Assembly (NCBI GenBank): GCA_000299095.1
Contig: CP003809.1
Location: forward strand, 372,001 to 436,000
DNA from: an alpha proteobacterium HIMB5
GTDB lineage: Bacteria > Pseudomonadota > Alphaproteobacteria > Pelagibacterales > Pelagibacteraceae
DNA: 64,000 bases
Direction of reading: 5' to 3'
The notes under the pieces were generated by a model. The model saw only the letters and a program-made list of their open reading frames with translations. It did no database searches and had not been told where the DNA came from. Positions 8,320 through 19,008 of the stretch are shown here, one piece after another; within the stretch, counting starts at the first letter, position 1, and each line of letters opens with the position of its first letter. Made by a program: the position numbers and the translations under genes.

Positions 8320-9527
8320 GTGAGAATTCTTCATATTTGTTACAGCGACAGTAGAGGTGGAGCAGCTATTGCTGCTTACAATATTTTTAAGTCCCAAAAA
8401 GATTTGGGATTAGATGTTTATTTTCTTTGTTATGAAAAATTTCATGATGATAAAAAAATTATAGAAATAGAAAAAAACTTTTTAAAAAAAAAAATTCATC
8501 AATATCAAAAAGGTTTAGATAGAAGATTAATTAAATTTTTTATTAAAGATAGAGATAATTCACATTCAACAGGACTATTTGGTTTAGGAATAATTGATAA
8601 AATTAAAAAAATAAACCCTGATATAATTAATTTACACTGGATCAATAATTCTATGTTATCAATAAAAGAGATTTCAAATTTAAAAAAATTTAAAATTTTT
8701 TGGACTTTGCATGACATGTGGCCATTTTGTGCAACAGGGCATTATACAATTAGAGATGATTATATTATTGGGTATGAAAAAATAAAAAAACTAGATTTTG
8801 AAAAGTTTATTTTTAAGAAAAAAAAAAAATATTTTGGAAATTTTATTAATATCATTTGCCCATCTAGATGGATATTTGAACAAGTAAAAAAAAGTGATCT
8901 TTTTAAAGAAAACGAAATAAAAATAATCCACCATCCAATGGATGAAAAATTATGGAATTTAGATTATAAGTTAAATACTAACTTTTTATCTTTCTCAGAA
9001 AAATACAATAATATAATTTTATTTGGATCAGAAAGAGGCAGTAATTTAAAAAGAAAAAACTTTAATTTTTTATTGGAAACTGTTTCTAAAATAAAAAAAA
9101 AAATAAAAAAAACTGTTTACTCGTATTTGGTGGAAAAAAAAGAGAAGATATACATTTTGAAAATTTCGATGTAAAATTTGTAGGTCATATTTATGATAAA
9201 GAATCTTTGAATAAACTATATTCTGCATGTGATATGTTAGCAGTTCCAAGCATTCAAGAAACCTTTGGTTTAGTTGCCGCAGAAGCATTACTTTCAGGTA
9301 CACCTGTGATTGCATTTCATAATACTGGTTTATCAGATATTATTGAACATAAAAAAAATGGATATCTTGCTAAAATAAATGATAAGGATGATTTTGTTAA
9401 TGGTATTAACTATATCTTAAACTTAAAAAAAAATTTTAAGAGTAATGATCTAAGAAATACAACTATTAATAAATTAAATTACAGAAAAATAAGTAAAGAG
9501 TATTTTGAATTTTACAAATCAATATAA
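8320..9527 (+). pseudogene. Family 4-type glycosyltransferase split by a -1 frameshift
   Basis: Two frames form one glycosyltransferase. From GTG 8320 the first reads R-I-L-H-I-C-Y-S-D-S-R-G-G-A-A, an H-D-M-W-P-F motif and C-P-S-R-W, then loses sense near 9112 and stops at 9174. Reading in the -1 frame from 9111 continues N-C-L-L-V-F-G-G-K-K-R-E-D, V-G-H-I-Y-D, then the C-terminal nucleotide-sugar motif E-T-F-G-L-V-A-A-E-A-L-L-S-G-T-P-V-I-A, ending at 9527. The joint lies in A11 (9093-9103) and A8 (9105-9112) runs. One missing A explains it: sequencing error, true mutation, phase variation or transcriptional slippage. Intact, it would be ~402 aa. Confidence 0.85.
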
Positions 9528-9534
9528 AATTAAT

Positions 9535-10329
9535 TCAATTTAAATTGTCAGTATATACACCATGAATATACCTGTTAATATATTCTTGGTTAAAAATTTT
9601 ATCATTTGATGTATAAGCATATATCAGTGAAATATTTTTATCATATATTTTTTGAAGAAATTTTTTATGTTTTTTAACGTCCTCAACGTTAACTGATATG
9701 AATTTTGGTCGAAATAAATATATAAAAAGTTTATGAACTTTGGATCCTCTAAAATTAAACATAGGGTTTTTTATATTATAAAATTTTGATAATAAGAATT
9801 TTCTAATACTAAAAATTTCAACAACGATCCTATCATTAAATTTTAGTTTTTGTTTCAATATTGAAAAATTTTGAGTCTTATCTGTAAAAAGTATTAAATC
9901 CTTATTACTTAAAAAAATTTGATTTATGTCAGTGTCTGATAACATTTCATATCTTTCATAATATTTTTTTTTACAAAATAATAAATCTTTAGAATAGAAT
10001 TCTTCTTTTACTTTCCTTTTGAGATTGCAAGCTTTATTTAATCTTTTAAAATCATGAAATGCAAATATTTTTGAATCTTCAGAAATATACAAGTCTAATT
10101 CTATCATTTTAAAATTTTTTTTAATACTTTTATCTAAAGCTTGTTTGCTATTAGTAAAAATCAAGCCATTAATTGATCCGCCAGCGTGTGCTATAAAATT
10201 ATAACTTTTATCACTCTCTCTTTTTTCAATTATATGATTAAAAAGTTTTGTGTTATTGTGAAATAAAAATATAAAAATTATTGTTAAAATACTAGAAATT
10301 ATATAAGTCAAAAATCTAGTTTTTTTCAT
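9535..10329 (-). CDS. Membrane-anchored GDPD-like phosphodiesterase, HAGG variant
   Basis: I chose ATG 10329 (264 aa; M-K-K-T-R-F-L-T), which overlaps the end of the OpgB-like gene by 14 bp. After one N-terminal transmembrane helix comes a GDPD/PI-PLC-like barrel start: I-A-H-A-G-G, I-E-L-D-L and F-A-F-H-D-F. The usual H-R-G is H-A-G and the usual E-N-T is T-N-S, so two residues of the classic glycerophosphodiesterase site differ. This variant (H-A-G-G with T-N-S-x-x-A-L) is, from memory, a polysaccharide-cluster subfamily. Pairing with a phosphoglycerol transferase suggests it hydrolyses or remodels glycerophosphate-substituted glycan (inference). Confidence 0.65.
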   Translation of the reverse strand: MKKTRFLTYIISSILTIIFIFLFHNNTKLFNHIIEKRESDKSYNFIAHAGGSINGLIFTNSKQALDKSIKKNFKMIELDLYISEDSKIFAFHDFKRLNKACNLKRKVKEEFYSKDLLFCKKKYYERYEMLSDTDINQIFLSNKDLILFTDKTQNFSILKQKLKFNDRIVVEIFSIRKFLLSKFYNIKNPMFNFRGSKVHKLFIYLFRPKFISVNVEDVKKHKKFLQKIYDKNISLIYAYTSNDKIFNQEYINRYIHGVYTDNLN

Positions 10330-11830
10330 ACCAAAAATTATCAAACAACTTCGAATTTGAATTAAATATAAAATCAATTTTTTTGTATTCTTTAGAAATT
10401 CCAAAAATACTAAAACCTAAGCCTGCTTTTGAATTTTCATTGAGAATATTAAATCCCGCAAGATTTAAAAAAGTTGGAAAAAAATCAAAAACGTTTATTT
10501 CTTCTCTTTTAAAATCTAAATTTTGATCTAAAAAAAAACCGTTATAAATATTTCTTTCACTTTTTTTTGCAAAATCTCCCATGAAAAGATGATCACCAAT
10601 AATTACTAAATTCGTATTTTTTAAATTTAATCTTTTATATTTTTGCAGAAATTTACTAATGTAAATCGATGAACACTTTATTGAATGGTTGATATTATAA
10701 ATTTCGTCTTTTTTTAAATTGTGGTAATTTTTTAAGCATTTAGGATTTGGGTAACCTTTAGGAGAGTGAAGATCTAATGTGTGTGCTGATATGAAAAAAT
10801 TTTGATTAGATTTATAATTTTGAGTTATTTGATCTATTAAAAAATCTAATAAAATATTGTCATGAATTCCTCCATGCCAATTTTTTTTTGAAAAATGCCA
10901 TGCTCTTCTTGAAGTTTGATACCCAAGTTTAGCAATTTCTCCTAAACCATATATTTCATCATAATTATGACTATTTGCAAAAGCGTCAAATCCTCCACTC
11001 TCAACATTATCAGAGGTAATTAGAATATTTTTAAAATTTTCTTTTTTAAGAATATCAGTAAGACAATCTAAGTTTGGTAAAAATCGTTTAACATTTTCAA
11101 ATAATCCTCCACTGATTAATCCAATTTTCAATAAAGGTATCCCACATTGAGACGCAATAAATGCATGAACAGTATATCCAGTTCCAGGAATTTGATAATA
11201 TTTATCAACTGATTTTAAGTCTTTGTTTGAAGTAATTTCTTTAATTAAATTTTCTCCAAAAATATTTTCGTTAGCGTATGTTTGTTCTAATGATTCTACA
11301 TATAATACGATCAAATTTTTTCTTTTATTGATTGATACAGAGGGTTTTAAATAATTTTCATCTAAATATGAATTGTTCGATGTATTATTTTTTTTGTAAT
11401 TAAAAAAATTTGTAAACTGAAGAAAAAAGAATATTGATAGGATTAATAATAAAATTAAATAAATTCTTGATAATAAAATTTTTTTAAAAATTAAATTTAA
11501 AAATAAAAAATTTTTTTTTTTTATAATTTTTATTAATTTTTTAAAAAACTTTATTATTATACTGTAATCAAGTCTAAGTTCTAAATAAATATATCTAAAT
11601 ATTGTAACTATTATTGACAATACTAATGGAAATATGATCAACCATCTTATTCCACTTTTATAAATTTTAGTATCTCCATCAATTAAACCCAAAACTTCCA
11701 TTTGAAAATGAATAATAAATTGATCCAAGTAAACAAATCCAAATTTTTTATTTAACCATAAAGGTAAGATAACAATTAAAAAAAAAAGATAATTAATTAG
11801 TATTTCTAAAAAAAATTTGAATTTATTCAT
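10316..11830 (-). CDS. OpgB/MdoB-like phosphoglycerol transferase (LtaS/sulfatase fold)
   Basis: A 504-aa protein with about four membrane segments (residues ~8-25, 62-82, 105-118, 123-140) and a periplasmic sulfatase-fold domain. The catalytic region strongly resembles E. coli OpgB: Y-V-E-S-L-E-Q-T-Y (E179), then G-T-G-Y-T at ~216-220 with the likely Thr nucleophile, followed by I-A-S-Q-C-G-I-P-L; the metal-site I-G-D-H-L-F-M-G-D is near residue 420. OpgB moves phosphoglycerol from phosphatidylglycerol to periplasmic glucans. Here it sits with rfbA/rfbB, so a surface glycan is the likely acceptor. No opgG/opgH is visible. Confidence 0.78.
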   Translation of the reverse strand: MNKFKFFLEILINYLFFLIVILPLWLNKKFGFVYLDQFIIHFQMEVLGLIDGDTKIYKSGIRWLIIFPLVLSIIVTIFRYIYLELRLDYSIIIKFFKKLIKIIKKKNFLFLNLIFKKILLSRIYLILLLILSIFFFLQFTNFFNYKKNNTSNNSYLDENYLKPSVSINKRKNLIVLYVESLEQTYANENIFGENLIKEITSNKDLKSVDKYYQIPGTGYTVHAFIASQCGIPLLKIGLISGGLFENVKRFLPNLDCLTDILKKENFKNILITSDNVESGGFDAFANSHNYDEIYGLGEIAKLGYQTSRRAWHFSKKNWHGGIHDNILLDFLIDQITQNYKSNQNFFISAHTLDLHSPKGYPNPKCLKNYHNLKKDEIYNINHSIKCSSIYISKFLQKYKRLNLKNTNLVIIGDHLFMGDFAKKSERNIYNGFFLDQNLDFKREEINVFDFFPTFLNLAGFNILNENSKAGLGFSIFGISKEYKKIDFIFNSNSKLFDNFWYEKN

Positions 11831-11837
11831 TTCTTTT

Positions 11838-12707
11838 TTAATAAATTAATCTTTTTAAATATGATGTATATTCACAATTTCCGTAAAAATTGATTGCATT
11901 TATTATTTGTTTTTTTGAAATCCATTTATTATTCAAAGCAATTTCTTCTATACATGCAATTTTGAAACCTTGTCTATTTTCAATAGCCGAAACAAAAGAG
12001 GAGGTTTTGTAGAAATCATCTATAGATCCAGTATCTAACCAAGCTCCACCTCTGCCTATAATATCAGCACTTAATTGTTTTTTTGATTTATAAAAGTTTA
12101 ATAAATCAACAATCTCTAATTCACCTCTTTTAGATGGCTTAAGTTTTTTTGCTAATTTAACTACTTTATTATCAAAAAAATATAATCCAGTTATTGCTAA
12201 ATCAGAAAAAAATTTTTTAGGTTTTTCTTTAATTGATAGAATTTTATTTTTTTTGTCTATTTTTGCTACCCCAAATGATCGAGGATTATGAACTCTATGC
12301 AACATTATTTTTGCACCTTTATTTATTCTGGTATTTTCTTTAAGTTTTGAGGTTAGATTTTGACCATAAAAAAAATTATCTCCTAAGATCATTGCTACAT
12401 TATCTTTACCAATGAATTTCTCTCCAATTACAAAAGCATCTGGTAAACCCTTTGGTTTATCTTGCTCCAAATAAGTTATTTTAATCCCTAAATTAACCCC
12501 ATTAGGAATAATTTTTTTGTACTGATCTAATTGTCCTTTGTTAACAATTATTAAAATATCTTTAATGCCTGCAAGCATTAAAATTGATAGAGGATAAAAA
12601 ATTAAAGGCTTATCATAAATGGGAAGAAGCTGTTTATTTACAGCTTTTGTTAAAGGGCTCATTCTTGTTCCTTTTCCTCCAGCTAAAATAATTCCTTTTT
12701 TTATCAT
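11838..12707 (-). CDS. rfbA: Glucose-1-phosphate thymidylyltransferase
   Basis: A 289-aa protein, the normal RmlA length. The nucleotidyltransferase motif G-G-K-G-T-R-M-x-P-L-T lies at residues ~10-20, followed by N-K-Q-L-L-P-I-Y-D-K-P. Further family markers are M-I-L-G-D-N, G-L-Y-F-F-D-N and R-G-G-A-W-L-D-T-G. It makes dTDP-glucose from glucose-1-phosphate and dTTP in the cytoplasm. The start overlaps the end of rfbB by 4 bp (translational coupling). Confidence 0.95.
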   Translation of the reverse strand: MIKKGIILAGGKGTRMSPLTKAVNKQLLPIYDKPLIFYPLSILMLAGIKDILIIVNKGQLDQYKKIIPNGVNLGIKITYLEQDKPKGLPDAFVIGEKFIGKDNVAMILGDNFFYGQNLTSKLKENTRINKGAKIMLHRVHNPRSFGVAKIDKKNKILSIKEKPKKFFSDLAITGLYFFDNKVVKLAKKLKPSKRGELEIVDLLNFYKSKKQLSADIIGRGGAWLDTGSIDDFYKTSSFVSAIENRQGFKIACIEEIALNNKWISKKQIINAINFYGNCEYTSYLKRLIY

Positions 12708-13717
12708 GTTCTTCCTAATCTTTTAATAATATCTTTTTTTGATAAACTTTTATAGTAAGTTTTGTTTTTTTTGTACCATTCAAATGTTAATTTAATTCCT
12801 CGTGCAAAATTTACTTTAGGTTTCCATCCTAATTTTTTAATAATCTTATTACTGTTTAACGCGTATCTGATATCATGACCTGGACGATCTTTAACAAAAT
12901 TTATTTTTACATCACTACCAAGCTTTACTAGTTTTTTTGAAACATTTAAAAGTTGAGAACAAACTTGTAAATTATTTAAATTTTTATTTGAACCAATATT
13001 ATAAAACTCTCCAATTTTACCTTTTAAAAAAACTTTTATTAATGCTTCACAATGATCTTTAACATAAATCCATTCTCTTGAATTTGTTCCTTTTCCATAA
13101 ATAGGTAAAGGTTTATTATTTAAAATATTATAAATTAATTTTGGTATTAATTTTTCAGGATGTTGCTTTGGTCCATAATTATTTGAACAATTTGTTACAA
13201 TAGCTGGAATTTTATATGTTCTTATATAAGAACTTACTAAATGATCTGAAGCTGCTTTGCTTGCTGCATAAGGTGAGCTTGGTTGGTAAGGATATGTCTC
13301 AGATGTTCTTCCAGATAAAATATCACCATAAACTTCATCAGTTGAAATATGAACAAGTTTTGACTTGTGTTTTTTTGTAAATTCTTTGAAACACTCTAAT
13401 AAATTATAAACCCCAACTATATTACTTTGAATAAAGCATTCTGGGTTATCTATTGATCTATCAACATGAGTTTCTGCTGCTAAATTAAAAATACAAGAAG
13501 GTTTATATTTAAAAAGAATTTTTTTTAGTTTTTTATCTTTAATGTCGCATTTTATAAATTTATAGTTTTTATTTTTAATGTGACTCTTTGTGTTATAAAA
13601 ATTTGATGAATAAGTAACTTTATCGATATTTATCACTGAGTATTTTTTTTCTAATAATAAATCTATTAGATTACTTCCAATAAAACCTAATCCACCAGTT
13701 ACTATTATTTTTTTCAT
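12704..13717 (-). CDS. rfbB: dTDP-glucose 4,6-dehydratase
   Basis: A 337-aa extended SDR enzyme with the G-G-L-G-F-I-G-S-N NAD motif at the N-terminus, S-T-D-E-V-Y-G-D (catalytic T-D-E), the Y-A-A-S-K active-site Tyr/Lys pair, and a substrate-binding R-E-W-I-Y-V-K-D-H. It converts dTDP-glucose to dTDP-4-keto-6-deoxyglucose. No rfbC or rfbD lies in the window, so the product may feed another deoxysugar, or the genes are elsewhere. It follows apt with no gap. Confidence 0.95.
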   Translation of the reverse strand: MKKIIVTGGLGFIGSNLIDLLLEKKYSVINIDKVTYSSNFYNTKSHIKNKNYKFIKCDIKDKKLKKILFKYKPSCIFNLAAETHVDRSIDNPECFIQSNIVGVYNLLECFKEFTKKHKSKLVHISTDEVYGDILSGRTSETYPYQPSSPYAASKAASDHLVSSYIRTYKIPAIVTNCSNNYGPKQHPEKLIPKLIYNILNNKPLPIYGKGTNSREWIYVKDHCEALIKVFLKGKIGEFYNIGSNKNLNNLQVCSQLLNVSKKLVKLGSDVKINFVKDRPGHDIRYALNSNKIIKKLGWKPKVNFARGIKLTFEWYKKNKTYYKSLSKKDIIKRLGRT

Positions 13718-14245
13718 TTAATGTCCTGGAAATTCAATTAAATTCTCAACTTTATATCCTTTTTTGATTAGATTATCACATCCACCTAAATCAAAAAGAT
13801 TTATTACAAACATAAAACCAGCTACTTTTGATTTAGAAATTTCAACAAGTTTTGCTGCAGCTTCTGCGGTGCCTCCTGTTGCAATTAAATCATCGATAAT
13901 CAAAATTTTTTCATTTTCATTAAATGAATCTTTGTGTACCTCAATTGTTGCAGTTCCATATTCAAGTTCAAAATCAATAGAATGTACATCAGCAGGAAGT
14001 TTATTTTTTTTTCTTAACATAATAAATGGTTTTTTTAATATGTAAGACATTGCAGATGCAAAAACGAAACCTCTTGACTCAATTGCAGCAATCTTATCAA
14101 ACTCGTATTTTTTAGATCTATCTAATAGTTGATCAATAGCTTCAGCAAAAGCTTTTTCATTTTTAATAAGTGTTGTAATATCCCTAAACAATATACCTTT
14201 TTTTGGATAATCTGGTATTGATCTAATAGTTTTTTTAAGGTCCAT
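13718..14245 (-). CDS. apt: Adenine phosphoribosyltransferase
   Basis: A 175-aa protein with the D-Y-P-K-K-G-I-L-F-R-D-I N-terminal motif, E-S-R-G-F-V-F-A in the hood and the PRPP loop I-I-D-D-L-I-A-T-G-G-T-A. It converts adenine and PRPP to AMP. It is divergent from the MTA/SAH nucleosidase gene with only 6 bp between the start codons, and the SpeD-SpeE gene follows that gene. This makes a functional set: spermidine synthesis releases MTA, the nucleosidase releases adenine, Apt recovers it. It also heads the minus-strand run into rfbB. Confidence 0.95.
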   Translation of the reverse strand: MDLKKTIRSIPDYPKKGILFRDITTLIKNEKAFAEAIDQLLDRSKKYEFDKIAAIESRGFVFASAMSYILKKPFIMLRKKNKLPADVHSIDFELEYGTATIEVHKDSFNENEKILIIDDLIATGGTAEAAAKLVEISKSKVAGFMFVINLFDLGGCDNLIKKGYKVENLIEFPGH

Positions 14246-14251
14246 AGTATT

Positions 14252-14779
14252 ATGAATAGAATATTTGTTGCTGCTTTAAAAGAGGAAACTCCTAATCTTG
14301 ATTATTTTTTTCACACAGGAGTTGGCAAAATTAATGCCAGCTACAATTTGATGAAATTAATAAATAAACTTAAACCAAAAGAAGTAGTTAATTATGGTAC
14401 AGCAGGATCTTTAAAACCTCAAATAACTGGATTAGTTGAATGTACAAAGTTTTACCAACGAGATATGGATGTTAGGTCACTGATGGACTTAGAGCTTGGT
14501 CAAACACCTTTTGATGATATTGGTCATATTGTAAATAATCAACAAGGCTACTCATGTGGTAGTGGAGATAGCTTTGTTAACAAAAAAATTGAATTAGATG
14601 TAGATGTTGTAGATATGGAGGCATACGCTCTTGCAAAAGTATGCAGACTTGAAAAAATAAAATTTAGATGTTTTAAATTTATTTCTGATAATGCTGATGA
14701 AAATGCCAAAACTGATTGGATTGAAAATTGTAGCTTAGGTGCAAAAATGTTCAATAAGATGATACAATCAGGAATTTAA
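14252..14779 (+). CDS. 5'-methylthioadenosine/S-adenosylhomocysteine nucleosidase-like protein, short form
   Basis: At 175 aa it is well below the ~230 aa of E. coli MTAN, but the core is present: A-L-K-E-E at the N-terminus (E11/E12), H-T-G-V-G-K-I-N-A, N-Y-G-T-A-G, the substrate-binding V-D-M-E-A-Y-A (E123) and the catalytic F-I-S-D-N-A-D (D146). Residues are missing mainly between the first strand and the G-V-G-K motif and in the region before the D-M-E motif. Its setting, between apt and the spermidine gene, supports MTA as substrate. The reaction would release adenine and methylthioribose. Confidence 0.78.
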   Translation: MNRIFVAALKEETPNLDYFFHTGVGKINASYNLMKLINKLKPKEVVNYGTAGSLKPQITGLVECTKFYQRDMDVRSLMDLELGQTPFDDIGHIVNNQQGYSCGSGDSFVNKKIELDVDVVDMEAYALAKVCRLEKIKFRCFKFISDNADENAKTDWIENCSLGAKMFNKMIQSGI

Positions 14780-14832
14780 TAAATATCTAATAAATTGTTG
14801 AAATAGTATTTTTAGAGTATAGAAACTCTTCT

Positions 14833-15873
14833 ATGGTAAAAGTTGGTGAACATATTACTGTTGATATAATTGGAACGAACAAAGAATATGATCCATCTAT
14901 CTATGAAAAAGTTATTAAAGATATTGCTAGTGCGGCCAGAGTAACGATTTTAAATATATCAAAGTATAAATTTGAACCACAAGGTTTTACTATCTTAGCT
15001 TTATTAGCCGAAAGCCATATTAGTTTTCATACTTTTCCAGAGAAGGGAATAGTTAGTTTTGATTTTTTTACTTGTGGAAAGGTAAGCCCTTCGATTGCTT
15101 TAGATATAATTAAAAAAGAATTTAAATATAAAAGACTTTCAATTAAAGAATTTGATAGAGACACAAATTCTCTTTATCATGATATTTATAGCTCAGCTGG
15201 TTTAAAAAAATCATATATTGTTAAAGATGTTTTAGAAGATTTTAAATCTAAAGTAGGCCAACATATTGAGATTTTAGAATTAGAACAATTTGGAAAAGCA
15301 TTATTTATTGATAATGAAATACAAGTAGCTGAGACTGATGAGCACCTATATAGCTCTACTTTTGTTGGAGCTGGCTTAGAATTAAATCAAGCTAATGAAA
15401 GAGCAGCAATAATTGGCGGCGGCGATGGTGGTGTAGCAAGAGAATGCATATCTAAGAAATTTAATTTTATTGATTGGTTTGAATTAGACCCTGAAGTAGT
15501 AGATGTTTGTAATAAGCATCTTGGGGATATTGGTAAAAAATCTACCGAAAAAAATTCTGTTAAATGTGTTTGGGGCGATGCATTTGAAAGCATTAAGTCT
15601 ATAGAGGATGATACATACGATCATATATTTGTAGATTTAAATGATGATCAATTTTGTATAGATCTTGCCGCAAAAAATATGGATTCTTTGGTTCGAATTT
15701 TAAAACCTAAGGGAGTTATAACAGCACAGGTTGGTAGCCAAGATAAAAAGCCAAAGCAAGTTCAAAATTGGATGAATGTATTCAATGAAAACTTTGGAAA
15801 TACTAAATTATCAAGGGTATATATTCCAAGTTTTGATTGTTCTTGGAATTTTTCTTCATCAATAAATCATTAA
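14833..15873 (+). CDS. SpeD-SpeE fusion: AdoMet decarboxylase and spermidine synthase-like aminopropyltransferase
   Basis: A 346-aa fusion. Residues 1-~120 are a bacterial AdoMet decarboxylase with the self-cleavage site E60/S61 in A-E-S-H-I-S-F-H-T-F-P-E and catalytic H66 and C81. Residues ~125-346 are an aminopropyltransferase with the decarboxylated-AdoMet loop G-G-G-D-G-G (195-200), W-F-E-L-D-P-E (E217), W-G-D-A (D249) and V-D-L-N-D-D for the catalytic Asp. Self-cleavage would release a free 60-residue beta chain and leave the pyruvoyl alpha chain fused to the transferase. The start is ATG 14833, 53 bp after the nucleosidase, likely one operon. The amine acceptor (putrescine or longer) is not evident. 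Confidence 0.88.
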   Translation: MVKVGEHITVDIIGTNKEYDPSIYEKVIKDIASAARVTILNISKYKFEPQGFTILALLAESHISFHTFPEKGIVSFDFFTCGKVSPSIALDIIKKEFKYKRLSIKEFDRDTNSLYHDIYSSAGLKKSYIVKDVLEDFKSKVGQHIEILELEQFGKALFIDNEIQVAETDEHLYSSTFVGAGLELNQANERAAIIGGGDGGVARECISKKFNFIDWFELDPEVVDVCNKHLGDIGKKSTEKNSVKCVWGDAFESIKSIEDDTYDHIFVDLNDDQFCIDLAAKNMDSLVRILKPKGVITAQVGSQDKKPKQVQNWMNVFNENFGNTKLSRVYIPSFDCSWNFSSSINH

Positions 15874-15936: not shown

Positions 15937-16803
15937 ATGAATATATTCAAAAAAACTATTTTTTCAGTTTTAGCGGTTTTATTATTTGTTGGTAATGTAA
16001 ATGCTACTGACAAAATTAAAATAGCTACTGAAGGTGCTTATCCTCCATGGAATTCAAAAAATGAAGCAGGTAAATTAATTGGTTTCGAAGTTGAATTAGC
16101 GTGGTCTCTTTGCAGATATATAGGAAGACAGTGCGAGATTGTTGAGCAAGATTGGGATGGAATGATTCCAGCTCTACAACTTAGAAAGTATGACGCGATT
16201 ATGGCTGGTATGTCGATTACTGATGAAAGAAAAAAAGTAATCACATTCTCTCAAGGTTATGCTGACGAAGTTGCATCTCTTGCTGTGATGAAAGGTTCCG
16301 ACCTAGAAGGCATGGAAACTCCAGCAGGTATCAACTTAACTAAACCTAACTCAGCTGCAAAAAAAGCTTTAAAAACAATTACTAAAGCTTTAGAGGGCAA
16401 AACAGTTTGTACACAAACTGGAACAATTCACCAAAACTTTTTAGAATCTGGTGATGTAGGTAGCGTTAATATAAGAACTTACAAAACACAAGATGAAGTA
16501 AACTTGGATTTAACTTCAGGTAGATGCGATGTTGCACTTGCTGCAGCAGTTGCATTTTCTGACTATGCAGAAAAATCTGGAAAAAATGTTGTATTAGTTG
16601 GACCAACTTTTTCAGGTGGTGCATTTGGTAATGGTGTGGGAGTAGGTTTAAGACAAGCAGCTCAAATGGGTGAAGACTCAGCAATGGGGAAAAGAGATGC
16701 TGAGCTTTTAAGAGCTTTCAACAAAGCTATTGATCAAGCAAGAAAAGATGGAGTAATTAGCAGACTTGCAATCAAACATTTTGGTTTTGACGCTTCTATG
16801 TAA
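15937..16803 (+). CDS. ABC importer solute-binding protein, polar amino acid/opine type
   Basis: A 288-aa SBP_bac_3 protein with a signal peptide (residues 1-23, cleaving after V-N-A) and the start of the mature domain I-K-I-A-T-E-G-A-Y-P-P-W. M-A-G-M-S-I-T-D-E-R is the usual ligand-site strand, and an arginine at the D-W-D-G-M-I-P-A-L-Q-L segment is typical. It looks closest to octopine/nopaline or arginine/ornithine/lysine binders; the ligand is unproven. A strong SD (AAAGGAG, 15924-15930) precedes ATG 15937. A hairpin separates it from the permeases, allowing excess binding protein. Confidence 0.88.
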   Translation: MNIFKKTIFSVLAVLLFVGNVNATDKIKIATEGAYPPWNSKNEAGKLIGFEVELAWSLCRYIGRQCEIVEQDWDGMIPALQLRKYDAIMAGMSITDERKKVITFSQGYADEVASLAVMKGSDLEGMETPAGINLTKPNSAAKKALKTITKALEGKTVCTQTGTIHQNFLESGDVGSVNIRTYKTQDEVNLDLTSGRCDVALAAAVAFSDYAEKSGKNVVLVGPTFSGGAFGNGVGVGLRQAAQMGEDSAMGKRDAELLRAFNKAIDQARKDGVISRLAIKHFGFDASM

Positions 16804-16818
16804 CAATCTTTTTGAAAA

Positions 16819-16840
16819 GGCGGTTATTTAATTAACCGCC
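16819..16840 (+). promoter_or_regulatory. Intercistronic hairpin between binding-protein and permease genes
   Basis: GGCGGTTA (16819-16826) and TAACCGCC (16833-16840) form a perfect 8-bp stem with a 6-nt loop. It starts 15 bases after the binding-protein stop and ends 8 bases before the permease ATG. No T-tract follows, so it is likelier an mRNA-stabilising or attenuating element that favours binding protein over permease than a full terminator. Confidence 0.7.
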
Positions 16841-16848
16841 CTTTCGAT

Positions 16849-17541
16849 ATGGAAATTCTTGCTTTTGGAAAAACAGGATGGGGTGACGAGTTATTTTATG
16901 CAACCTTGATGACTATTGCTGTTTCAATAACAGCAATGGTAATTGGTTTTTTTTTTGCAGCAATTTTTACACCCTTAAAATTATCAAAACATAAATCATT
17001 AAATTTAATTGGAAATTTTTATACAACAGTAATCAGGGGTGTTCCTGAATTATTAGTAATTTACCTTTTCTTTTTTGGTGGAAGTAGTGCAATTATGTAT
17101 GTTGCATCTATTTTTGGTTATTTTGAATATATTGAGATCAATGCGTTTATCACTGGTTCTTTAGCAATAGGAATTATTTCAGGTGCATATTCTACCGAAG
17201 TTTTTAGGGGCGCTATTCAATCAATCGATAAAGGTCAGTTTGAAGCTGCAAAAGTTTTAGGAATAAGTAGATTTGGTCAATTTTATAAAATTATCATGCC
17301 TCAAATGTTAAGGCTAGCAATTCCAAATTTAAGTAATGTTTGGCAAATAACATTAAAAGACACATCATTAATTTCAGTAACAGGTTTGGTTGAAATTATG
17401 AGACAGTCTTATGTTGCAGCAGGATCAACAAGAGATCCATTATTCTTTTATTCAGTAGCAGCTCTTTTATATTTGTTTTTAACATTCATCAGCATGAAAC
17501 TAATAAATAGATTAGAACTAAAATACAGTAGGGGTTATTAA
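16849..17541 (+). CDS. Amino-acid ABC transporter permease (HisQ type)
   Basis: A 230-aa permease with about five membrane segments and the ABC-permease EAA motif near residue 125-150 (Q-F-E-A-A-K-V-L-G-I-S). The segment R-G-V-P-E-L-L-V-I-Y-L is the family's conserved helix-two start. It pairs with the next permease (1-bp overlap of stop and start) to form a heterodimer. No ATPase gene is nearby; a shared ATPase must be encoded elsewhere. Confidence 0.9.
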   Translation: MEILAFGKTGWGDELFYATLMTIAVSITAMVIGFFFAAIFTPLKLSKHKSLNLIGNFYTTVIRGVPELLVIYLFFFGGSSAIMYVASIFGYFEYIEINAFITGSLAIGIISGAYSTEVFRGAIQSIDKGQFEAAKVLGISRFGQFYKIIMPQMLRLAIPNLSNVWQITLKDTSLISVTGLVEIMRQSYVAAGSTRDPLFFYSVAALLYLFLTFISMKLINRLELKYSRGY

Positions 17542-18218
17542 TGAATTTTGAATTAATTATCTCTAGTTTTCCAAAAATGTTAGGTGCAGCTGTAATAACA
17601 GTTAAGCTTTTGGCATTTTCATTGGCTATCGGATTATTGATAGGATTATTTTTTGCAGTCTTGAGATTAAATAAAAATATTTTTATTAATAAATTTGCAT
17701 ATGGATATTCATATTTATTTAGAGGAACTCCATTACTAGTTCAAATTTACATAATTTATTTTGGACTTGGTCAAATTGAGTTTATTAGATCAACTTTTTT
17801 ATGGGTTATTCTAAAAGAACCTTTTTGGTGTGCAATAATTGCTTTTGCATTAAACACAGGTGCCTATACATCTGAAATACTAAGATCAGCTTTTCAAACA
17901 ATTAAACCCGGAGTAATTGAAGCCGGAAAAAGTTTAGGAATATCAAATAAAATAATTTTTTATAAAATTCAAATTCCAATTGCTATACGACAATCACTCC
18001 CTGCTTACGGAAATGAAATAATTTTAATGCTTAAAGGAACATCTCTTGCAAGTACTGTCACTATTATGGATTTAACAGGTGTAGCAAAACACATTATATC
18101 AACAACCTTTAAGCCTGTTGAAGTATTTATATTAGCTGGAAGTATTTATCTCTTCATGACTTTTATAATTCACAATTTAATTAAATTTTTAGAAAAAAAA
18201 TACAGTTTCCAAAAATAA
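17541..18218 (+). CDS. Amino-acid ABC transporter permease (HisM type)
   Basis: A 225-aa permease with R-G-T-P-L-L-V-Q-I-Y in the second helix and the EAA-loop motif V-I-E-A-G-K-S-L-G-I-S. About five membrane segments. It is translationally coupled to the preceding permease and is followed after 1 bp by the PhyH-type dioxygenase gene, so all are probably one transcript. Confidence 0.9.
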   Translation: MNFELIISSFPKMLGAAVITVKLLAFSLAIGLLIGLFFAVLRLNKNIFINKFAYGYSYLFRGTPLLVQIYIIYFGLGQIEFIRSTFLWVILKEPFWCAIIAFALNTGAYTSEILRSAFQTIKPGVIEAGKSLGISNKIIFYKIQIPIAIRQSLPAYGNEIILMLKGTSLASTVTIMDLTGVAKHIISTTFKPVEVFILAGSIYLFMTFIIHNLIKFLEKKYSFQK

Positions 18219-18219
18219 T

Positions 18220-19008
18220 ATGCACTTATCTCAACAGCAGATTGATGATTACCAAAAAAATGGTGCAATAGTTATAAAAAATATATTTAAAGATTGGATT
18301 GAGCCATTAAGAAATGGATTTCAAACAGTATTAGATAATCCAAGTAAACACGGAAGAGAAAACGTAAGTAAAAATAATGGAAGATTTTTTGAAGATTATT
18401 GTAATTGGGAAAGAGTAGAAGAGTTTAAAGATTGCATGTACAATTCTATAGCTGCTCAAATAGTTGCTGAGGCAACTTATTCAAAATCAATACAAATCTT
18501 TCATGATCATCTTTTTATAAAAGAACCTGGAACGAGTAAAGAAACACCTTGGCATCAAGATATGCCATATTATTGTGTTAATGGAAATGACACAGGAAGT
18601 TTTTGGATTCCATTAGATGAAGTAAGCAAAGAGAATAATCTTAAATTAATTTTAGGATCTCATAAATGGGAAAAACTTTTAAAACCAACTAAGTGGTCTA
18701 ATAATCAATCTTGGTATCAAGATGATAGTTCATTCACAAACCTCCCACCAAAAGAAGAATTTGAAAAAAATATATTTATTCCTGACTTAAAATTAGGTGA
18801 TGCAGTATTGTTTAATTTTAAAACTGTGCATGGCTCAACCGGAAATAATAGCTCACAAAAGCGTAGAGCTTTCTCCATGCGGTTTATCGGAGATGATGTG
18901 ACTTATGTTAATAGAGGAGGACCGACATCCCCACCTTTTGATAATATAAATTTAAAAAATGGAGATAAAATGAGAGTGGATTGGTTTCCAAAGGTTTTTA
19001 GTAATTAG
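18220..19008 (+). CDS. Phytanoyl-CoA dioxygenase (PhyH)-family Fe/2OG oxygenase
   Basis: A 262-aa protein with the PhyH signature: T-P-W-H-Q-D-M-P-Y (iron-binding His and Asp, near residues 106-108), S-F-W-I-P-L-D-E, G-S-H-K-W, and the distal V-H-G-S-T-G-N His with the following R-R-A-F-S-M-R that binds 2-oxoglutarate. Relatives hydroxylate small molecules such as ectoine, amino acids or acyl chains. Its place at the end of an importer operon hints that it hydroxylates the imported compound (inference). Its 3' end overlaps the convergent gene by 11 bp. Confidence 0.85.
   Translation: MHLSQQQIDDYQKNGAIVIKNIFKDWIEPLRNGFQTVLDNPSKHGRENVSKNNGRFFEDYCNWERVEEFKDCMYNSIAAQIVAEATYSKSIQIFHDHLFIKEPGTSKETPWHQDMPYYCVNGNDTGSFWIPLDEVSKENNLKLILGSHKWEKLLKPTKWSNNQSWYQDDSSFTNLPPKEEFEKNIFIPDLKLGDAVLFNFKTVHGSTGNNSSQKRRAFSMRFIGDDVTYVNRGGPTSPPFDNINLKNGDKMRVDWFPKVFSN

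Follow-up and report, generated by a model that had tools for sequence, protein, structure and literature searches.

The window, a 64,000-nucleotide stretch of the genome of the alpha proteobacterium HIMB5, a member of the SAR11 group that abounds in the ocean, contains three adjacent genes at the positions given in the original prediction. The first is apt (13718..14245, minus strand), which encodes an adenine phosphoribosyltransferase of 175 aa. On the plus strand are a gene for a compact protein of 175 aa with the MTA/SAH-nucleosidase fold (14252..14779) and a gene for a 346-aa SpeD-SpeE fusion (14833..15873). We confirmed that the nucleosidase and fusion genes are co-directional and that apt lies on the opposite strand; apt and the nucleosidase gene are divergent, and 6 bp (AGTATT) separate their start codons. 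The nucleosidase stop codon and the fusion start codon are 53 bp apart and the two genes are unfused. We refer to the interval from the apt start to the speD-speE start (14246..14832, no strand assigned) as the slot, with apt as its fixed left border and the fusion as its fixed right border. In the window genome the slot holds the nucleosidase as a swappable cassette, while in most relatives it holds an mtnP-mtnA-aldolase set of approximately 2.6 kb.

The fusion consists of an AdoMet decarboxylase (approximately residues 1–110) followed by an aminopropyltransferase (approximately residues 127–344), and a profile search found the domains AdoMet_dc, Spermine_synt_N and Spermine_synth. The SpeD half scored 98.8 bits against TIGR03330 (cut-off 75.65) and 98.4 bits against PF02675 (AdoMet_dc, cut-off 25), and the SpeE half scored 85.9 bits against PF01564 (Spermine_synth, cut-off 22.9). 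Against the spermidine synthase equivalog TIGR00417 the fusion scored 105 bits, under the cut-off of 249.55. The SpeE half is thus predicted from its sequence to be a divergent, broad-specificity aminopropyltransferase. We found that the SpeD catalytic positions E60, S61, H66 and C81 were invariant in 21 fusions, four of them from phage, as were the GGGDGG AdoMet motif (G195–G200) and the DxxD acidic pair (D268/D271) of the SpeE half. Self-processing had been predicted at E60/S61, with S61 becoming the pyruvoyl group, and this placement is right: the site spans 15010..15015 on the plus strand, with the E60 codon at 15010–15012 and the S61 codon at 15013–15015. In the predicted structure two confident domains are joined by a low-confidence linker (approximately residues 117–126; pLDDT 87, pTM 0.68) and have no fixed interdomain orientation.

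SpeD-SpeE fusions have been described before and are biochemically proven in two strains of Ca. Pelagibacter. Earlier work on the fusion was reportedly carried out by Green et al. in 2011. A 2024 JBC study of the HTCC1062 and HTCC7211 fusions from Ca. Pelagibacter found that they restored spermidine to E. coli mutated in speD and made spermine/thermospermine in E. coli mutated in speE, and demonstrated that these homologues decarboxylate AdoMet and not arginine or ornithine (PMC11107197). The claim that both halves of the fusion are active is therefore borne out for the HTCC1062 and HTCC7211 homologues in E. coli. It has also been argued that SpeE runs in reverse as well in SAR11 (PMC8437039). 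The window fusion appears to be another member of the HTCC1062/HTCC7211 type.

The compact nucleosidase scored 57.3 bits against PF01048 (PNP_UDP_1, cut-off 25.1), and no other PNP_UDP_1 protein is encoded in the window genome. An AlphaFold2 model built with 42 homologues as input reached a pLDDT of 90.7, and the best 50 matches to this model in a Foldseek search of the PDB were all MTAN-type (MTA/SAH nucleosidase or futalosine hydrolase), the top match being Brucella melitensis MTAN (PDB 4pr3, E 1.2e-12). E12, M122–E123 and D146 are invariant across the 42 homologues. The reference catalytic residues of MtnN/Pfs are Glu12, Glu174 and Asp197 in E. coli numbering; in local alignments E123 and D146 align with the ribose-binding Glu and the catalytic Asp of MTAN, and we infer from its position that E12 is the counterpart of E. 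coli Glu12. Since the protein scored under the NCBIfam MtnN equivalog cut-offs (95.8 against 129 for PRK05634 and 47.8 against 73.8 for TIGR01704), we call it MtnN-like rather than a proven MtnN. This suggests a compact, divergent subfamily with a putative MtnN function. We rejected SAH removal as the main need for the nucleosidase because SahH was found in 9/9 genomes tested, so that the nucleosidase is not required for SAH. Apt is ordinary: it scored 198 bits against TIGR01090 (cut-off 185.85) and 210 against PRK02304.1-3 (cut-off 170), and its gene borders the cassette in mtn-type and nucleosidase-type loci alike.

The original prediction held that the three genes cover consecutive steps, and the sequences support this logic. 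The fusion would use decarboxylated AdoMet to aminopropylate polyamines and, as shown for close homologues, would thereby release MTA. This by-product is toxic. Judging from fold, catalytic residues and context, the compact nucleosidase would hydrolyse MTA to adenine and methylthioribose, and probably hydrolyses 5′-deoxyadenosine too; Apt would convert the adenine to AMP. The further claim that the module is self-contained fails at the methylthioribose half, for which the window genome has no known route. We found no match to mtnA at E ≤ 1e-10 in the window genome, no mtnP, and no mtnK over its cut-off (best score 35 against 275). Because no kinase, phosphorylase or isomerase was found, it is likely that the window strain salvages adenine and releases methylthioribose together with its sulfur, by analogy with E. 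coli K-12. SAR11 bacteria are considered to depend on others for reduced sulfur. That a sulfur-auxotrophic lineage should discard methylthioribose is counter-intuitive, and this counts against release.

It would follow that nothing is lost if methylthioribose, once cleaved from MTA, were salvaged through an unrecognised kinase or an exporter-importer route. The window genome does encode PF01636-type kinases (L336, 2336–3283), among them the source of the weak MtnK match. However, this kinase scored best against AmgK (118 bits, under the AmgK cut-off) as opposed to 36 bits against MTR kinase, its gene adjoins a MurU-like gene, and mtn-type relatives carry the same AmgK-like kinase; we therefore rejected it as an MTR kinase. 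Moreover, with mtnA absent, there is no known reaction that would take MTR-1-P further. We consider such hidden salvage unlikely, and favor loss of methylthioribose from the window strain.

We surveyed 147 genomes of the order and found the fusion in 84, apt in 126 and the nucleosidase in 11. All 84 fusion-bearing genomes could be resolved: 74 have mtnP, six have the nucleosidase and in four the locus lies at a contig end, where the fusion is flanked by mtnA (three) or the aldolase (one). Thus mtnP, mtnA or, in one case, the aldolase lies beside the fusion in 78 of the 84. The slot mtnP encodes an MTA phosphorylase (MTAP, 307 bits, cut-off 275) and the slot mtnA an MTR-1-P isomerase (410 bits, cut-off 279); the class II aldolase is closest to fuculose-phosphate aldolase and far under the MtnB cut-off. 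All 28 mtn-type loci that could be read from apt through to the fusion have apt pointing away from mtnP, mtnA, the aldolase (where present) and speD-speE, which follow in that order on the other strand, sometimes with inserted genes. In four of these 28 (L045, L051, L052 and L059) the small aldolase is absent, and the region from mtnA to the fusion contains an oppositely oriented gene for a 677-aa protein; that of L045 (6147–8177) scored 902 bits (cut-off 639) as a bifunctional aldolase/short-chain dehydrogenase.

Where the nucleosidase is present the gene order is equally regular. Divergent apt followed by the nucleosidase and speD-speE was found in 21 of the 23 nucleosidase-bearing genomes of the family, the exceptions being G009, which lacks the fusion, and G417, which is rearranged at a contig end. 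A separate scan of GTDB gave the same order in 32 of its 33 SAR11 loci, a set that overlaps with the 23 genomes. Given this synteny, we rejected chance adjacency of the three genes. The block had nevertheless been expected to be conserved across SAR11, and this reading has to be corrected: only 6 of the 84 fusion-bearing genomes have the nucleosidase, and the rest have an mtn-type locus instead. Many of the genomes are SAGs or MAGs with incomplete sequence, so that some apparent absences reflect missing data. It is the slot that is conserved, and not the three-gene nucleosidase block. A literature search that covered few subscription journals found no published account of an MTA slot in SAR11.

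The surroundings of the slot were also inspected. In the window apt adjoins a glycan-biosynthesis region (rmlA, rmlB and glycosyltransferases, 8320–13717), and some relatives carry an insertion of glycan genes between apt and mtnP (L047, L048 and L049 were among those considered). After the fusion, genes for a basic-amino-acid-type ABC transporter (a binding protein and two permeases, window 15937–18218) are conserved across most members of the genus, with no ATPase gene directly 3′ of the permeases. A gene for a PhyH-type Fe/2OG dioxygenase follows (window 18220–19008), and PhyH homologues lie inside the mtn cassette, as mtnP-PhyH-mtnA, in three relatives (loci listed: L046, L052, L071, L047, L048 and L054). 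It is possible that this dioxygenase carries out an unknown step tied to MTA or polyamine metabolism. The gaps between nucleosidase and fusion (window 14780–14832; L093–L124) often contain TTGAAA...TATATC-like stretches, and the fusion in nucleosidase-type loci may have its own promoter there. In the mtn-type locus L033 the gap between aldolase and fusion is just a few bases. An Rfam scan of 11–20 kb of the window gave no match.

The two cassettes exclude each other. Among the 147 genomes of the order, mtnP was found in 77 and mtnA in 80, and neither occurred together with the nucleosidase in any of its 11 genomes. Among 399 genomes of the genus the nucleosidase was found in 20 and mtnP in 285, again with no overlap; under independence, with relatedness ignored, the probability of this in the genus set is 3.6e-12. 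Parsimony on the speD-speE tree requires at least eight changes of state, four of them forced by well-supported branches. An independent tree of NrdA, whose gene lies approximately 16 kb from the locus in the window genome, also requires at least eight, with five forced. Different alleles were found in sister genomes (nucleosidase in G011 and mtn in G024; nucleosidase in G030 and mtn in G096). The nucleosidases of the SAR11 family form one clade together with a few sequences from other marine alphaproteobacteria. This switching is most simply explained by repeated allelic replacement via the conserved flanks, and homologous recombination in apt and speD-speE is the most likely means by which cassettes would be swapped between members of the genus.

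Because the nucleosidase and mtnP occupy the same position and never co-occur, MTA removal is probably the function common to both. The nucleosidase might still act mainly on another nucleoside, such as deoxyadenosine or the 5′-deoxyadenosine produced by radical-SAM enzymes, with its adjacency to speD-speE being secondary. MTAN-type enzymes are promiscuous (PMC6302742; PMC10986504), and in some relatives and other marine alphaproteobacteria the gene is found without an adjoining speD-speE (G009, G014, L125–L171). In the latter bacteria neither apt nor speD-speE adjoins it, which also counts against the slot. However, in fusion-bearing SAR11 the nucleosidase lies exactly at the mtnP position and never together with mtnP, and we regard a different main substrate as improbable. 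Least of all do we expect the three genes to form a conserved self-contained unit whose enzymes are physically linked and channel MTA or decarboxylated AdoMet from one to the next: gene order does match pathway order and AdoMetDC and aminopropyltransferase do share one chain, but few fusion-bearing genomes have the nucleosidase, no known route recycles methylthioribose, the flexible linker in the fusion model fixes no orientation, and the nucleosidase and Apt are separate proteins that nothing physically links to the fusion.

Taken together, we think it probable that a fixed, exchangeable MTA-disposal slot lies between apt and speD-speE, and that the window strain carries its minority, hydrolytic allele. 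Judging by gene content, most SAR11 bacteria would convert MTA and Pi to adenine and MTR-1-P, then MTR-1-P to MTRu-1-P, and this to DHAP and methylthioacetaldehyde.

Homologues of both genes were found in viruses. A tblastn search confirmed the compact nucleosidase in 340 IMG/VR stretches, but INPHARED has it in just 7 of its 50,697 records and PHROGs has no family for it. Among 80 viral loci kept (L173–L252), apt neighbours the nucleosidase in 30, usually directly upstream (for example L175, L182, L184, L211, L237 and L244, with a start-stop overlap in L175 and L182). The viral apt of the three loci tested (L182, L211 and L237) each scored over at least one Apt equivalog cut-off. By sequence, marine viral apt and nucleosidase apparently form an uncatalogued adenine-salvage pair. 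A viral origin of the SAR11 nucleosidase was not supported, as most viral sequences fall in clades apart from the SAR11 clade. On inspection by eye, one nucleosidase-bearing phage contig (L173) seems to encode a protein resembling ribosomal protein L11 (8208–8510), close to a cold-shock-like gene.

The full SpeD-SpeE fusion was found in eight short phage contigs of IMG/VR, 58–60% identical to the window fusion, and in no INPHARED record. Phage fusions (loci L324–L331 and L333–L335) are approximately 347 aa long and keep the catalytic residues. Three of the contigs read extend past the fusion on either side (L324, L325 and L327), and in these T4-like phage contigs it lies between nrdA and nrdB. 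Fusions are absent from the main text of a paper on polyamines in the virosphere (PMC9992855), and a global ocean survey reported phage speE as new (PMC11360552).

A wider reading, which we put forward tentatively, is that this is an either/or recombining locus at which sulfur- and carbon-saving phosphorolysis and one-gene hydrolysis are exchanged between lineages, so that methylthioribose becomes a strain-dependent public good and MTA handling is perhaps contested during phage infection. If true, a cassette swap would set whether the methylthio sulfur is kept or released for each polyamine made, and a single locus would be tied to sulfur economy, carbon economy and cross-feeding. This reading predicts methylthioribose in the spent medium of nucleosidase-type strains only.

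The components of the slot resemble known systems to different degrees. The window fusion shares its architecture, N-terminal class 1b SpeD and processing site with the HTCC1062/HTCC7211 fusion, a fused enzyme active as AdoMetDC and Spd/Spm/Tspm synthase. The SAR11 nucleosidase has sequence motifs similar to those of Brucella melitensis MTAN (4pr3), but the two are only 23% identical and the SAR11 protein is shorter (175 aa compared with a 205-residue chain). DHAP shunts are known as MtnP-MtnA-Ald2 or Pfs-MtnK-MtnA-Ald2 variants (PMC10986504). With mtnP, mtnA and a class II aldolase, the slot of most SAR11 matches the MtnP variant, whereas the stand-alone nucleosidase of the window genome, lacking these partners and an mtnK over cut-off, resembles the dead end of E. 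coli K-12, which excretes methylthioribose in a like situation (PMC10986504; PMC6302742). Both have a nucleosidase and Apt without MTR kinase or isomerase, and in both adenine is salvaged. In contrast to E. coli, where the nucleosidase is approximately 232 aa, the window genome has the compact 175-aa form, deals with SAH through SahH, and carries the nucleosidase gene between apt and speD-speE.
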